From NCBI GenBank assembly GCA_002862305.1, contig PKCS01000016.1:1-33362 (forward strand): a stretch of 33,362 nucleotides of DNA, read 5' to 3'. The position numbers and the translations under genes are program-made. Of this stretch, positions 16,904 through 22,633 are shown in pieces (position 1 is the first letter of the stretch; the number at the start of each line of letters is the position of its first letter). Source of the DNA: Phycisphaerae bacterium. GTDB lineage: Bacteria > Planctomycetota > Phycisphaerae > Phycisphaerales > SM1A02. The notes below the pieces were generated by a model, which worked only from the letters and a program-made list of their open reading frames with translations, did not search any database and was not told the origin of the DNA.

Positions 16904-18469
16904 ATGATCGACCCTCCAACCCTCATGCTGTTCCTCGCGGGGGCTGACGGGCACCTCCAGGACGCCCCGGCCTCCACGGGTCCCGACTGGTGGGGGGCCC
17001 TCGCCGGACTCCACCCCCTGGTCATCCACTTCCCGATCGCCCTGATCATCGTCGCGGCCCTCGTGGAACTGGTCGCCCTGCTGGCACGGCACCATCGACT
17101 GACCTCCTTCGGCATCATCGCGGTCCTGGTCGGCACCCCGTTCGCGGTCCTCGCGGCCTGGAGCGGCTGGTCCCTCGCCGACGAGGGATACGGGCGCGGC
17201 CTGGAACTCGACCTCCACCGCTGGCTGGGGGTCGCCTCGGTCGGGCTCCTGGCGCTGATGTTCGTGCTGACCCTCGTCAGCTGGTTCGGTCACCGTCAGT
17301 GGGCCACGGGAAGCGTGCGCGGTCTGCTGCTGGTCTCGGCCATCCTGATCGGGATCACCGCCCACTTCGGGGGTGACATGGTCTGGGGCAAGTCGCTGGT
17401 CGCCGAGTCCCTGTTCCCGGGACCGGACGCCACCTCCGACGTGCGCACCGCCGCCGGCGAGGGCACCGGGGCGGTCCGCGACGACCCGGCCCCCGCGGCC
17501 ACCCCTGCCGAGCCGGCCGGCACCGCCGGCCCGACCGTGGCGGCGGTTTCCTTCGAGGCGCAGGTGAAGCCGATCCTCGACACCCACTGCTGGGACTGCC
17601 ATGGTCCGACCGGCCGGGCCAAGGCCGGGATCAGGCTGGCCTCGGCCGCCGATTTCAGTCGGGACATCCATGGTGCCCCCATGGTCGATCCGGGTTCCCC
17701 CGAAGGCAGCGAGCTGTTCAAGGTCGTGAACCTGCCACGCGACGACGACCTCGCGATGCCGCCGAGCGGCCCCGGCCTGACCAAGCAGGAGATCGAGGTG
17801 CTCCGGCGCTGGATCCTCGAGGGGGGACGGCTCGAGCCGGCGGCCGCGGCCCCGTCGACCGCCGACGTCACCCGGGACGAACCAAGGCCCCAGGACCCGC
17901 CCGCTCCCCCCGGGGCGGATCCACTCACCGACGCCCAGCGGTCCGCGATGCGCGACTCGACGTCACGCCTCCGCGAGCGAGGGGTGTCGATCCGCCCGGT
18001 TTCCGTGGACAACCCCTTCCAGGTGCTCAACGCCAACGGCCTGAGCCACCGCCTGGAACCTCCCTTCGGGGATGCGGACCTCGCGCTGGTGGCCGGCCTG
18101 CGCCCCGTGCTGCAGGACCTCGACCTCGCCAACACCGAGGTCACCGACCGGGGGATCTCGGACCTCGCTGGATTCGACCACCTCGAGCGCATCTCCCTGA
18201 AGGACACCGCCACCTCCGATCCCGGGGCCCGGGTCCTCGCGGGTCTTCCCGCCCTCGAGGTCGTCAACCTCTTCGGGACGCAGCTGGGCGACGAGGGACT
18301 GCTCGAGCTCGCCCGTTCAGCCAGCATCCGCCGAATCTACGCCGGCCAGACCCTGGTGACCGAGTCCGGCGTGGAGGCCGCCCGGCGGCTGCGAGCGGAC
18401 GTGACCATCATCTGGGCGGCCCCCGTGCTCCCGGCCACCACCGCCTCCGCCGCCTCGCCCGGCCTCTAG
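16904..18469 (+). CDS. Fusion of DUF2231 membrane domain, cytochrome c and leucine-rich-like repeats
   Basis: This encodes 521 residues; AAGGA lies 6 nt before the ATG. Residues about 34-160 are a four-helix DUF2231-like membrane domain with HPLVIHFPIALII at the first helix, HRWLGV at the third and a conserved-looking HFGGDMVWG at the end of the fourth; such domains carry histidines that may bind haem. A disordered A/P/T linker leads to a cytochrome c domain: CWDCH at 229-233 binds haem, and Met285 in AMPP is the probable axial ligand. A second P-rich linker leads to about 385-500, which reads as leucine-rich-like repeats (LQDLDLANTEVTDRGISDLAG, then LERISLKDT and LEVVNLFGTQLGDEGLLELA). The fusion suggests an inner-membrane, periplasm-facing electron carrier with a protein-binding tail. 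Partners are not in the window. Confidence 0.82.
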   Translation: MIDPPTLMLFLAGADGHLQDAPASTGPDWWGALAGLHPLVIHFPIALIIVAALVELVALLARHHRLTSFGIIAVLVGTPFAVLAAWSGWSLADEGYGRGLELDLHRWLGVASVGLLALMFVLTLVSWFGHRQWATGSVRGLLLVSAILIGITAHFGGDMVWGKSLVAESLFPGPDATSDVRTAAGEGTGAVRDDPAPAATPAEPAGTAGPTVAAVSFEAQVKPILDTHCWDCHGPTGRAKAGIRLASAADFSRDIHGAPMVDPGSPEGSELFKVVNLPRDDDLAMPPSGPGLTKQEIEVLRRWILEGGRLEPAAAAPSTADVTRDEPRPQDPPAPPGADPLTDAQRSAMRDSTSRLRERGVSIRPVSVDNPFQVLNANGLSHRLEPPFGDADLALVAGLRPVLQDLDLANTEVTDRGISDLAGFDHLERISLKDTATSDPGARVLAGLPALEVVNLFGTQLGDEGLLELARSASIRRIYAGQTLVTESGVEAARRLRADVTIIWAAPVLPATTASAASPGL

Positions 18470-18613: not shown

Positions 18614-19222
18614 ATGACAATCGACCCACGTCGCACCGCGCTGGTGCTGATCGGCTTCCAGCGTGACTACTTCAACGAGGACGGGATCCTGCACGGCGTG
18701 GTCGAGGAGTCACACCGCGTCAGCGGCACCCTCGAGAACACCCTGGAGTTCATCGAGGCCTTCAAGGATTCCGAGATGCTGATGGTGAACACCCCGATCG
18801 TCTTCAGCGAGCTCTACGAGGAGCTGGAGAACCCGATCGGGATCCTCAAGACGATCCGCGACGTCGAGGCGTTCAAGCAGGGCGCCCCGGGATCCGAGGT
18901 CATCGACGAACTCGGTGCCTTCGGGGACCGGATCGTCACCCTGCCCGGGAAGAAGAGCTTCAACGCATTCTCCAACACCAAGCTGGGCGAGACGCTCAGG
19001 GAGCACGACATCGACACGCTGGTCTTCGCCGGCTGCGTCACCTCCATCTGCGTCCACGCAACCGCGCTCCACGCCTTCGACTCCGGGTACAACGTGGTCC
19101 TGCTCTCGGACTGCACCTCGTCGAGGACCGCCATCGAGCAGGACTTCTTCTGCGAGAACGTGTTCCCGCTCTTCGCCGAGGTCGCGCGCTCCACCGACCT
19201 CTACTCCACGGTCAGCGGATGA
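18614..19222 (+). CDS. Isochorismatase-fold cysteine hydrolase-like protein with altered catalytic site
   Basis: This encodes 202 residues; AAAGGA lies upstream of the ATG. The fold is that of the isochorismatase/nicotinamidase family. The cysteine is present (Cys146 in GCVTSICVHAT) with its usual preceding V-T, and the lysine is present in PGKKSFNAF (Lys113 or Lys114). The first strand reads ALVLIGFQRDYF, whereas family members have a catalytic Asp where this protein has Gly14; the downstream Asp18 of the motif is kept. Either Asp18 or another acid substitutes, or the protein is a non-hydrolytic binder or a different hydrolase subfamily. Its stop overlaps the start of the histidine kinase gene (ATGA), so the two products are made together. 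The substrate is unknown. Confidence 0.85.
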   Translation: MTIDPRRTALVLIGFQRDYFNEDGILHGVVEESHRVSGTLENTLEFIEAFKDSEMLMVNTPIVFSELYEELENPIGILKTIRDVEAFKQGAPGSEVIDELGAFGDRIVTLPGKKSFNAFSNTKLGETLREHDIDTLVFAGCVTSICVHATALHAFDSGYNVVLLSDCTSSRTAIEQDFFCENVFPLFAEVARSTDLYSTVSG

Positions 19223-20898
19223 GCGAACCCCGCGACGAGCCCGCCAGCGAGGCCGGCCGGGAGGGGGACGCCAGTCCCAACCGGTACGACCAGCTGATCT
19301 CGGAGAACCAGTTCCTCCTGGAGAAGCTGCACGCCGAGCACGATCGTCGCGCCCGCCTCAAGCTCGAGGCGATGCTCGCGGAGACGCCAGCGATCCACTT
19401 CGAGCTGGACCAGCAGCAGCGCATCGCCTACGTCAACCCGACGTGGAGCCGGGAGCTGCTGCACCCGGTCTCCGACGTCCTCGGTCGCCCGCTTTCCGAC
19501 TTCGTGGCCCCGTCCCACCAGGCCGTCCTGGCCGCCGCGCTCACCGAGCGTACCCGGGAGGACCACACCGACTCGGCTCCCGACATCTGCTTCATCGATC
19601 GCGAGGGTCGTCCCCTGTGGATGAGCATCCGATTCAGGTTGAATCGAAGCGGCACCATCAGCGGGAACATGCAGAACGTCTCGGTGCACCGTGAACTCGA
19701 GAACGAGCGGCTCCGGACCCAGAAGATCAACTCGATCGGTCGGTTCGCCGCCGGGTTCGCGCACGACTTCAACAACCTCCTGATGGCGATCACCGCGAAC
19801 CTCGACATCACCCGGCGGAAGCTCGAGTCCCGCGACATCCTCCTCGAGGAGGTCTCGCTGGCGCTGAGGGCCTGCGGCCACGCCTCCCAGATCACCAAGC
19901 AGCTGATGAACTACAGCTCCATCGGCCAGGAGCAGCTTCCGGTGGTGACCCCGGCCTCCATCACCGAGCTGGTCGAGGAAGCGGTGGAGATCGCGTTCCG
20001 GGGATCCCAGGTCCAGCCGATCCTCAGCATCGATCCCGGAATACCCATGGTCAGGATGGACGGTTCGCAGATCCACCAGGTGCTCAACAACCTGCTGCTC
20101 AACGCCGAGCAGTCGATGCCCGAGGGGGGGGTGATCAAGATCCGGATCCGGGAGCGGTACTACGCACCGCCCTCCAACCCGAACCACCAGGAGGGGGTGG
20201 CCATAGAGATCCGCGACCAGGGCGTGGGAATCGCCAAGGAGGACCTCGAACAGGTCCTGGAGCCCTACTTCACCACGAAGGAGATGGGCAACGGACTCGG
20301 GCTCACCACCGCCTACTGGATCGTGAAGCATCACGACGGCCTGATGGAGATCGAGAGCGCCCCCGGGAGCGGGACGATGGTCAGGGTCACCCTTCCGGTC
20401 TCCGAGGTGCAGGCAGCCCCCGCCGAGTCACCCGCCCGCAGCCAGCCGGTGCACAAGCCGCTGACGGTGCTGGTCATGGACGACGACGACCAGGTGCGTT
20501 CGGTGCTGGCGTCGATGCTCGAGTTGCTCGGGCACCGGGTGCTCACCTCGCGCAACGGGGAGGAGTGCCTCGCCAAGTACCTTGACTCACTGGTCGAGGG
20601 GAGCGAGCTCCCCTCGATCGACGTGCTGGTCCTCGACCTCGTCGTCGCCGGGGGCCGGGGCGGGATCTGGACGCTCGATCGGCTCCGGGAGGTGGATCCG
20701 GCGGTCCGGGCGGTGGTATCCACCGGGTTCAGCAAGGACCCCGTGGTCGAGGACTACGCCAGCCATGGCTTCGTGGGGGCCCTCCGGAAGCCGTACACCG
20801 TGGACGAGCTGCAGGCGAGGTTGTCCGAGGCCTGCGAGATCGATCCCCTCCGGGATTCACGAGGTCCAACGGACGAAACGCGGCCCCGGCACTCCTGA
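19219..20898 (+). CDS. Hybrid sensor histidine kinase: PAS, HisKA, HATPase, receiver
   Basis: This encodes 559 residues and no membrane segment, so it is probably cytoplasmic. A short coiled coil (about 22-55) precedes a PAS domain (about 55-160, with YVNPTWSRELLHP). The H-box is FAHDFNNLL with phospho-acceptor His182. The ATPase domain has N-box NNLLLNAEQSMPEGG (from 290), G1 DQGVGIAKED (333-342), PYFTTK and G2 GNGLGL (357-362). After a proline-rich linker the receiver (about 415-540) has the acidic cluster DDDD (421-424), phospho-acceptor Asp473, Thr502 and Lys524 in RKPYT. There is no DNA-binding output, so phosphate probably passes to a separate protein or feeds back. It overlaps the isochorismatase-fold gene by 4 bp, which suggests that protein or its product informs the kinase. 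Confidence 0.93.
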   Translation: MSEPRDEPASEAGREGDASPNRYDQLISENQFLLEKLHAEHDRRARLKLEAMLAETPAIHFELDQQQRIAYVNPTWSRELLHPVSDVLGRPLSDFVAPSHQAVLAAALTERTREDHTDSAPDICFIDREGRPLWMSIRFRLNRSGTISGNMQNVSVHRELENERLRTQKINSIGRFAAGFAHDFNNLLMAITANLDITRRKLESRDILLEEVSLALRACGHASQITKQLMNYSSIGQEQLPVVTPASITELVEEAVEIAFRGSQVQPILSIDPGIPMVRMDGSQIHQVLNNLLLNAEQSMPEGGVIKIRIRERYYAPPSNPNHQEGVAIEIRDQGVGIAKEDLEQVLEPYFTTKEMGNGLGLTTAYWIVKHHDGLMEIESAPGSGTMVRVTLPVSEVQAAPAESPARSQPVHKPLTVLVMDDDDQVRSVLASMLELLGHRVLTSRNGEECLAKYLDSLVEGSELPSIDVLVLDLVVAGGRGGIWTLDRLREVDPAVRAVVSTGFSKDPVVEDYASHGFVGALRKPYTVDELQARLSEACEIDPLRDSRGPTDETRPRHS

Positions 20899-20935: not shown

Positions 20936-22633
20936 TCAGCCGGTCCAGGCCGAGAGCAGCAGGGCGAGATCGCCGCCCGCGACCGCACCGTTGCCGTCGA
21001 TGTCGTAGATGCAGACCACGGTCCCATCACCCTCGTCGCAGGGACCCCAGTTGGCGAGCAGCTGGGTCAGGTCGGCCCCGTTGACCGCGTTGTCGCCGTT
21101 GAAGTCCCCGGGCAGGATCGGCTGGCTCTCGTACTCGATGATGATCCCGTTGACGAGGGCCTCCCCGCTGGCGTCGTTCCAGGATCCGTCGCCGTAGATC
21201 TGGCCGTAGTCCTCGGAGCCAGGGTTGCCCGCGTTGTTCGGTTCGTTCACTTCCCAGTTCGTGTAGACCAGCGGTTCGCCGGTGACCCACTGCCAGCCGC
21301 CGTCCGGTTCGACCGAGCCCGGCTGCTGGACGAGTCCGATCGCGATCCCACTGTCGACGTACACGTTCGGGAGGACGTTGTTCCTGAGCATGACGCCCTC
21401 CGCCGCGGAAGTGATGGTCACCAGGTGCCCGCCACGCTCCTCGGCGTAGAGGATCGCCTCGGGGGAGGTCATCGGGACCGGAAGGGCGAACCCCTCGTAC
21501 TCGTTGCCGTTCCCGCCCTCCGAGACCGGCCACAGGTAGCGGGTGGGGGAGCCCGGACGCTTCACCACGTACCCACCCCACTGCTCGGGGGTGTCGTTCC
21601 GGTTGTCGTTCCACCCGTTGCCGCTCAGCTGCCCGTAGTCCTCGCCGCCCGAGTCGTTCGGTTCGCCCGGGTTCCAGTTGGTGTAGGTGAGCGGGGTCCC
21701 GTCGGTCCACTTCCAGCCTCCCGAGGGCTCGGCGTACTCCGGATCGGCCCGGTCCTGGTAGAGGCCGATGGCGCAGATCCCGCTCCCGAGGCCTGATCCC
21801 GCGAATCGAACCACGGCGTCCTCCACCGCGCTGGAGATCGAGACCATCTGGTCCCCGGCCGCTTCCGCCTCCGCTCGGCACTCCTCCCACGTGGCGCTTC
21901 CTCCCGCCACCTCCCAGAGCTCGTAGAGGGTGTCCTCCTCGGCTCCCAGGTCCGTGGTCCAGGGCACCACCTTCTGCAGCGTCCGGGTGGAGGGCTGCAC
22001 GGTCAGGGTCCCGCTGCCGATGAAGAAGTTCGCGTAGGCGCCAAGGCAGATGTAGTAGTCACGGCCGGCCTCCGCGAGGAAGGTCAGCTGCTGGGTGAAC
22101 CCGTCGCACCCCGGCGAGTCGTCGAGGCAGTCAACCAGGTCCGCGTTGGTGCAGTTGTCGACGAAGATCGCGAGCCGGGTGTCGAAGGTCGCCTGGCTGC
22201 AGGTGGAAGCCACGTAGCTCCCGGATTCCGGGCAGCTCCATTTGAACCACAGCGCCCGGTAGAGCACGTCGTTGCCGAATCCGAGATCGCAGGTCCCGGT
22301 GATGTCCACGGTCAGGGTGGAGCTCGTGTTGTCGAAGGCCACCGCACCGTCCACGATCGTCTGGGACTCCGGGCAGTCGTCCGGCGGCGGGGGCGGTGGC
22401 GGGGCGCCCGGGCACTCCTTGTCGGTGCAGTCGCCCCCGTCGTTGTCGTAGCAGCACAGGTTCGCCCCGTCGAGCTGGTCGACCCCGTCGCAGAATCCGT
22501 CGCCGATGAAGAGCTCCTCGATGCAGTCCGAATCGGCGCAGTCCTCGACCTCCCCGACCGGGCAGGTTCCCGTCGGTCCGTTCAGGGCGAGGCACAGGCA
22601 GGCGAGTCCGGTGGTCGTACAGGCGATCGGCAT
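20936..22633 (-). CDS. Mosaic secreted lectin: LNR-like, PPC-like, two C-type-lectin and dockerin-like modules
   Basis: This encodes 565 residues; AAGGAG lies 6 nt before the ATG at 22633. The N-terminus (MPIACTTTGLACLCLALNG) is a weak, Cys-containing signal without basic residues. Residues about 32-69 match a Lin-12/Notch repeat (GDGFCDG, then CCYDNDGGDC). A polyproline tract (78-84) leads to a PPC-like beta domain (about 87-213, with DTRLAIFVDNC). Two C-type-lectin-like domains follow at about 225-360 and 370-500. Each has an EPN triplet (324-326 and 464-466), the mannose-type calcium site of this fold, and a WND triplet (341-343 and 485-487). The end (about 508-565) has two dockerin-like calcium loops (DFNGDNAVNGADL and DIDGNGAVAGGDL). 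It probably binds calcium and sugars outside the cell. It converges on the kinase gene with 37 bp between stops. Confidence 0.85.
   Translation of the reverse strand: MPIACTTTGLACLCLALNGPTGTCPVGEVEDCADSDCIEELFIGDGFCDGVDQLDGANLCCYDNDGGDCTDKECPGAPPPPPPPDDCPESQTIVDGAVAFDNTSSTLTVDITGTCDLGFGNDVLYRALWFKWSCPESGSYVASTCSQATFDTRLAIFVDNCTNADLVDCLDDSPGCDGFTQQLTFLAEAGRDYYICLGAYANFFIGSGTLTVQPSTRTLQKVVPWTTDLGAEEDTLYELWEVAGGSATWEECRAEAEAAGDQMVSISSAVEDAVVRFAGSGLGSGICAIGLYQDRADPEYAEPSGGWKWTDGTPLTYTNWNPGEPNDSGGEDYGQLSGNGWNDNRNDTPEQWGGYVVKRPGSPTRYLWPVSEGGNGNEYEGFALPVPMTSPEAILYAEERGGHLVTITSAAEGVMLRNNVLPNVYVDSGIAIGLVQQPGSVEPDGGWQWVTGEPLVYTNWEVNEPNNAGNPGSEDYGQIYGDGSWNDASGEALVNGIIIEYESQPILPGDFNGDNAVNGADLTQLLANWGPCDEGDGTVVCIYDIDGNGAVAGGDLALLLSAWTG

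Follow-up and report, generated by a model that had tools for sequence, protein, structure and literature searches.

An isochorismatase-fold protein with glycine at the catalytic acid position is encoded beside kinases and other signaling enzymes in Phycisphaerae and further bacteria

The isochorismatase family has a catalytic Asp-Lys-Cys triad, and its fold is known mainly for the hydrolysis of amides and vinyl ethers. Here we analyze a gene pair at positions 18614-20898 of a stretch of 33,362 nucleotides from a Phycisphaerae bacterium (contig PKCS01000016.1; the whole stretch is termed the window), in which a 202-residue protein of this fold, a putative sensor or regulatory subunit (18614-19222, + strand), is encoded together with a soluble hybrid histidine kinase of 559 residues (19219-20898, + strand). 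Amidohydrolases of the isochorismatase superfamily, such as biuret hydrolase, RutB, and nicotinamidase, have the fold, the Lys, and the Cys in common with the window protein, which lacks their acid. All five listed matches of this protein to NCBIfam equivalogs (biuret amidohydrolase, RutB, YcaC, nicotinamidase) were below the cut-off, with scores such as 69 versus 370 for BiuH and 41 versus 378 for RutB. The top match of its AlphaFold2 model (mean predicted local distance difference test score, pLDDT, 93.6) in the Protein Data Bank was 3kl2, a putative isochorismatase of Streptomyces avermitilis from structural genomics (Foldseek expectation value (E) 3.5e-23, template modeling score about 0.94, 32-34% identity). 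This protein shares the fold over the full length as well as the Lys and the Cys, but has Glu at the acid position (LIEYQ), where the window protein has Gly, and the LIEYQ-type relatives of the 3kl2 kind found in this study are not located beside kinases.

With respect to gene arrangement, the closest described systems are H-NOX and NosP, small soluble proteins encoded beside a cytosolic kinase or a cyclic di-GMP (c-di-GMP) enzyme that they are thought to control, with H-NOX reported to act on enzymes of both kinds (PMC8738867). These are heme proteins of other folds, whereas the window protein has the isochorismatase fold and matched no heme-sensor Pfam family; the system resembles H-NOX/NosP in arrangement and not in fold. 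Partnership with Ser/Thr kinases and a helix shared by the partners are features of the window system that were observed here. The best NCBIfam matches of the window kinase were CckA-like and PRK13557-type soluble hybrid histidine kinases, which have the same PAS-HisKA-HATPase-REC order, but the scores were far below the cut-offs (187 versus 631 and 184 versus 1000), and the operon partner differs.

The linkage of the isochorismatase-fold protein to signaling genes is conserved, copies with Gly or Ser at the acid position are separated from those with an acid, and partners of unrelated classes have a short helix in common. We consider it probable that the two genes constitute one cytoplasmic module, with the isochorismatase-fold protein as its regulatory subunit, docking on the kinase and tuning it. 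No description of the pair was found among the matches listed in the literature searched, which comprised titles and the openings of abstracts and included few subscription journals.

Conserved linkage to signaling genes

In an unfiltered test, whole genomes were searched with the family alignment (E <= 1e-20) in three draws of together 840 genomes. This yielded 46 copies, of which 5 were from 148 genomes of one cyanobacterial order, 20 from 294 genomes of the window's phylum, and 21 from 398 genomes of the phylum of Pseudoalteromonas. The copies were split by score into 31 with at least 253 bits (30 with Gly and one with Ser at position 14) and 15 with at most 180 bits, which had Glu (11), His (2), or Asp (2) at this position. 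Each of the 31 Gly/Ser copies adjoins a signaling gene that encodes a histidine kinase (26 cases), a Ser/Thr kinase (G329 and G360; G and L numbers are our handles for genomes and loci), a fusion of a Ser/Thr kinase and a histidine kinase (G221), or a PAS-GGDEF-EAL protein (G787 and G180); for part of these partners, the assignment is based on domain tables of the individual proteins, and for the others on family counts (e.g., 21 of 24 with HATPase_c). The only linked Ser copy (L186:4037-4603, LLLVSYQNDYF, genome G180) lies beside the gene of a PAS-GGDEF-EAL protein. The histidine kinase lies upstream of the Gly protein in G541, G506, and, as far as seen, G394. In G506 (L209:1663-3711), this upstream kinase consists of two same-frame open reading frames (ORFs) split by a stop codon, with the helix match in the first.

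In contrast, none of the 30 ORFs nearest to the 15 copies with Glu, His, or Asp matched HisKA, HATPase_c, Pkinase, GGDEF, or EAL; some of these ORFs had no Pfam match and are perhaps spurious frames, and the L213 contig ends right after the gene, with both scanned ORFs upstream. A wider family scan around these copies, covering 74 ORFs and listing the 25 commonest of 136 families, likewise showed no signaling gene next to them. Fisher's exact test for 31/0 versus 0/15 gave 2e-12, a value that is not a count of events, as the rows share ancestry. Ten family-bearing genomes hold 13 places of ordinary paralogues, all below 60 bits as compared to more than 300 bits for the family. Those that were aligned have Asp at the acid position, and no kinase was seen in an operon with ordinary paralogues in 11 stretches judged by eye.

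In a further draw of 61 genomes of relatives, 6 of the 7 Gly-type copies were located beside a signaling enzyme, namely five histidine kinases and the Ser/Thr kinase of G008. Gene adjacency of the H-NOX/NosP type was, in summary of the four draws, found for 31 of 31 copies (840 genomes) and for 6 of 7 (61 genomes). An earlier reading of the window (the original prediction) had regarded the pair as a signaling unit in which a modified enzyme senses or makes a cue for a hybrid kinase, and had set conserved linkage beforehand as the test by which this view could be refuted; it was not refuted.

With two peptide patterns, 263 relatives were identified in genome contigs. The best 80 were retained for analysis, and within these 80 the nearest named relatives of the window protein came from Phycisphaerae/Phycisphaerales assemblies. 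In 73 of the 80 loci, a signaling gene follows directly downstream on the same strand. These comprise 70 partners that were aligned together with the window kinase (alignment A2, 71 rows), the short helix-bearing genes of L039 (with a weak HisKA match) and its near-copy L040, and the Ser/Thr kinase of L094. When ORFs of at least 110 residues within about 6 kb were clustered over the 80 loci, the kinase-type family was the only widely recurring neighbor (76 loci), the next largest cluster having 11 members. With no recurring metabolic neighbor among these ORFs, the idea of a metabolic operon was discarded for the entire clade. In all five genomes of the genus that were searched, the two genes overlap by 4 nucleotides (ATGA in four, GTGA in one).

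The partners are mostly histidine kinases and sometimes PAS-GGDEF-EAL proteins or Ser/Thr kinases. Among the 71 rows of A2, HisKA and HATPase_c were each found in 67, PAS in 66, a receiver in 33, and GGDEF and EAL in 3, and the partner in L043 has HATPase_c but no HisKA. The signaling interpretation is thus well supported by the conserved linkage, and this part of the original prediction stands, whereas a hybrid histidine kinase is not essential, since the partners include Ser/Thr kinases and PAS-GGDEF-EAL proteins.

A short helix on unrelated partners

The N-termini of the 70 partners aligned in A2 have in common a stretch of about 20 residues before the PAS domain that is predicted to be helical, with a consensus of about [DE]LxxQIQYRLIExL. 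A profile of 22 positions was derived from 48 such stretches at kinase N-termini, mostly of histidine kinases, and its positions L11, E13, and L15 are near-invariant. Ten genomes had one strong profile match each (E <= 5.8e-7), always in the neighbor of the Gly protein, with the next best match at 0.43; as these genomes supplied rows of the profile, only the absence of other matches is informative. Some genomes of the draws may likewise be identical with rows of the profile. In the draw of 148 genomes, the four genomes with the protein were the four with a helix match below 0.05, and in the draw of 294 genomes, 12 of 13 helix matches below an E of 0.01 adjoin the protein. The draw of 398 genomes gave seven matches below 0.0015, all of which adjoin the protein, and weaker matches (0.003 to 0.03) in genomes with and without it, as expected by chance. 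Of the 31 linked copies, 24 had a helix match when adjoining matches below 0.05 were counted.

The helix is found at the N-terminus of histidine kinases and PAS-GGDEF-EAL proteins (L034, L042, L223, L186); on Ser/Thr kinases, its position is C-terminal. The match in G329 and G360 covers residues 508-523 of a Ser/Thr kinase of 528 residues that is encoded directly downstream (E 5.8e-6 and 6.9e-6), and because both belong to the same genus, they represent one independent C-terminal case. In L094 (Polyangiaceae), the adjoining Ser/Thr kinase has a weaker match (11.8 bits) close to its C-terminus, the G221 fusion has a weak one (10.4 bits) between its Ser/Thr kinase and HisKA domains, and a similar stretch was recognized by eye near the C-terminus of the G008 Ser/Thr kinase, with a profile score at chance level. 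The helix is also present in partners without PAS, namely the Bacteroidota proteins of L073 and L079, which have a GAF domain, and that of L043, which has neither, and no PAS domain was reported by Pfam in the Ser/Thr kinases of L179, L180, and L094. The best explanation for a short element kept on unrelated enzymes, always next to one small protein, is that the latter binds there, and the helix may thus serve as the docking place of the isochorismatase-fold protein.

In three verrucomicrobial loci, the facing strand encodes a kinase-type protein with the helix (L039:7824-9284, L043:4202-6499, and L077:8585-10210, minus strands). In L039 and L043, this gene is additional to the directly downstream helix-bearing gene, and in L077, a receiver-guanylate-cyclase gene lies between. 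The arrangement looks as if one sensor served several outputs.

The window proteins, their proposed function, and alternative explanations

The 202-residue protein is encoded by a complete ORF and matches Isochorismatase (PF00857, E 1.1e-42) as its sole Pfam family, over its whole length and with 146.6 bits versus a cut-off of 27. It is the single PF00857 match of its genome (G000, 103 contigs, 96.6% complete, with the window as contig C25). The original prediction had correctly described the ATGA overlap with the kinase gene (19219-19222, + strand) and the altered triad, in which Gly14 (18653-18655, + strand) replaces the acid, while Lys113 (18950-18952, + strand) and Cys146 at the position of the family nucleophile (19049-19051, + strand) are retained. 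In the alignment, ordinary paralogues have Asp at position 14, and the nearest relatives have Glu. Gly14 was present in all 63 rows of the pattern-selected alignment A3, a count that is not independent, because one of the two selecting patterns includes Gly; in the unfiltered draws, 30 of 31 copies had Gly and one had Ser. Lys113 is found in 63 of 63 rows of A3 and Cys146 in 62 of 63; L181 has Arg at the Lys position.

As the acid is lost, ordinary thiol-activated hydrolysis is unlikely, and as Cys146 and Lys113 are near-invariant, the pocket still matters. The protein of L008, which adjoins a Ser/Thr kinase, has lost the Cys (Trp) in addition to the acid, indicating that catalysis is not required in every case. 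Asp18, considered in the original prediction as a possible stand-in acid, was rejected, because this place is occupied by an acid in the majority of acid-bearing relatives as well. Glu175 is likewise common among them, and no replacement acid is evident, with the clade-typical Glu31 still being a candidate.

In the window kinase, we located PAS (residues 49-138, 19363-19632, PF00989, E 2.9e-7), HisKA (residues 174-237, 19738-19929, PF00512, E 2.4e-5), HATPase_c (residues 281-395, 20059-20403, PF02518, E 2.4e-21), and a receiver domain (residues 417-535, 20467-20823, PF00072, E 8.8e-13), all on the + strand. The HisKA match (24.7 bits) is slightly below the Pfam cut-off of 26.9; the H-box HDFNN at 182, the N-box NLLLNA, the G-boxes, and the Asp and Lys motifs of the receiver were all identified. 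In agreement with the original prediction of a kinase with PAS and receiver domains that has neither a membrane segment nor a DNA-binding output, the Pfam scan reported no DNA-binding family, and with a maximal 19-residue mean hydropathy of 1.42, no membrane segment is evident.

We infer from these aspects a model in which the subunit, its acid having been exchanged for Gly, is probably no longer active as an ordinary amidohydrolase but would retain Lys and Cys in a pocket for a ligand. The subunit would bind the kinase, most simply via the short helix preceding the PAS domain, and a small molecule in the pocket, or a change at the Cys, would alter the autophosphorylation or phosphatase activity of the kinase, which would transfer phosphate to its own receiver domain and onward. 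The same subunit and helix may have been plugged onto PAS-GGDEF-EAL proteins and Ser/Thr kinases. Since a PAS domain is already present in the majority of partners other than Ser/Thr kinases, the isochorismatase-fold protein would add a second input.

Several observations weigh against this model. The distance matrices of 51 pairs correlate equally with the kinase core and the helix (both partial r 0.47), and this test thus reveals co-inheritance and not docking. The helix was missed in 7 of the 31 linked copies (G000, which is the window genome, G221, G352, G394, G400, one of the two G452 copies, and G541), its match on Ser/Thr kinases is at chance level in L183 and weak in L094 and L170, and G478 has a helix match (E 7.8e-4) in a genome without a Gly-type protein. 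Seven of the 80 pattern-selected loci have no same-strand downstream partner (L044, L062, L063, L066, L077, L085, L092); among these, L063 has a histidine kinase upstream, L044 has one on the facing strand, L066 and L077 have a receiver-cyclase protein on the facing strand, and L062 starts at the contig edge. In G025, the Gly copy is an orphan, with no kinase recognized nearby by eye and no helix match in the genome. This copy (L007:1501-2076 / L184) has the Gly-type motif VGYQ and is followed by a small cupin-like ORF. In the window itself, the profile did not find the helix in the kinase at E <= 0.5. Residues 23-45 (19285-19353, + strand), which occupy the position of the shared motif in A2, align with the motif of the kinases of genus-mates (e.g., L025) but are strongly changed. 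Either the helix contact has been remodeled in the window lineage, or the docking interpretation is wrong here; we favor remodeling because of the 4-nucleotide overlap and the conserved partner.

The near-invariance of Cys146 and Lys113 is compatible with an active enzyme as well, and the main alternative is that the protein still is an enzyme with a remodeled Cys-Lys site, the acid being replaced or dispensable, that makes or removes a molecule sensed by the PAS domain of the partner. We regard this as unlikely. The intact fold (AlphaFold2 model, 3kl2 match) and the PAS domain in 66 of the 71 partners would agree with it, but the feature that the partners have in common is the helix, which is kept on Ser/Thr kinases without Pfam PAS and on the partners of L073 and L079, which have GAF, and of L043, which has neither domain. 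Moreover, the genes beside the pair include no recurring metabolic family, the Cys is lost in L008, and the acids Asp18 and Glu175 are no specific replacements. Of the two roles in the original prediction, sensing or making a cue, the data lean to that of a regulatory subunit, given the helix on unrelated enzymes and the Cys-less L008, with the near-invariance of Cys146 leaving room for residual or altered catalysis.

Aldehydes react chemically with cysteines of this kind, and there is a small chance that an electrophile, aldehyde, or oxidant modifies Cys146, together with the clade-typical Cys180, and that kinase activity is set by the modified state. Cys180 is present in 57 of 63 rows of A3 and missing from the aligned acid-bearing relatives, which together with the conservation of Cys146 would suit such a covalent or redox switch, but L008 lacks Cys146, and L223 has Met at position 180. 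Such a switch is a sub-case of the regulatory-subunit model and does not exclude it. It is improbable that the genes are merely co-transcribed for one pathway, with neither contact nor influence between the proteins, and that the helix is a dimerizing coiled coil of the kinases. The helix presumably leads into PAS as coiled coils often do, and docking itself is deduced from sequence, both of which fit this idea; however, the helix is almost confined to neighbors of the Gly protein, although the genomes encode numerous other kinases, and it is also found at the C-terminus of Ser/Thr kinases.

Distribution, surroundings, and implications

Two changes of the Gly label are required on the tree of the full set of 101 rows. 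After four long-branched acid-type rows (L127_D5, L129_D6, L125_D4, L121_D3) had been dropped, a single branch (Shimodaira-Hasegawa-like approximate likelihood ratio test 99) separated the Gly rows (74 of 97) from the others, the column of residue 14 having been set to be omitted from both trees. In these sequence comparisons, the Gly proteins behave as one clade. The 80 pattern-selected loci bear ten phylum names in their record titles, and "ten phyla" counts names, since some titles look wrong: in the 101-row tree, L030 (Synechococcus) is placed among Planctomycetota rows and L093 (Kuenenia) among Gemmatimonadota rows.

The viral contig collection contained no relative with a single-sequence query and one locus with an alignment query. 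This Gly-type copy (L104:6001-6564, motif LIGYQ) is on an IMG/VR contig of 34.5 kb that encodes a phage-type single-strand-binding protein and has no helix-bearing partner; if the contig is a real phage, the copy could act on host signaling as a decoy or modulator. Plasmid matches were all below 60% identity (two regions inspected). Upstream of the pair, the window gene at 16904-18469 combines a DUF2231 membrane region, a Planctomycete cytochrome C domain, and a leucine-rich repeat, and an ORF family of similar size was found upstream in five Phycisphaeral loci. The facing gene (20936-22633, - strand) has a C-type lectin domain and a dockerin-like C-terminus slightly below the Pfam cut-off.

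The pair may well represent a previously undescribed system that extends over about ten phyla, in which a de-catalyzed receptor plugs via a docking helix of about 20 residues into three unrelated classes of output, namely histidine kinases, Ser/Thr kinases, and c-di-GMP enzymes. As compared to operonic accessory-sensor signaling, the new parts are the fold, the partner range, and the shared helix. If true, the isochorismatase fold would have a second career as a signaling receptor, and the short helix would mark its partners by sequence alone. This would provide a candidate input for many soluble kinases of cyanobacteria, marine gammaproteobacteria, planctomycetes, and others, and it would be a natural case of one sensor that has been moved between two-component, Ser/Thr-kinase, and c-di-GMP signaling.

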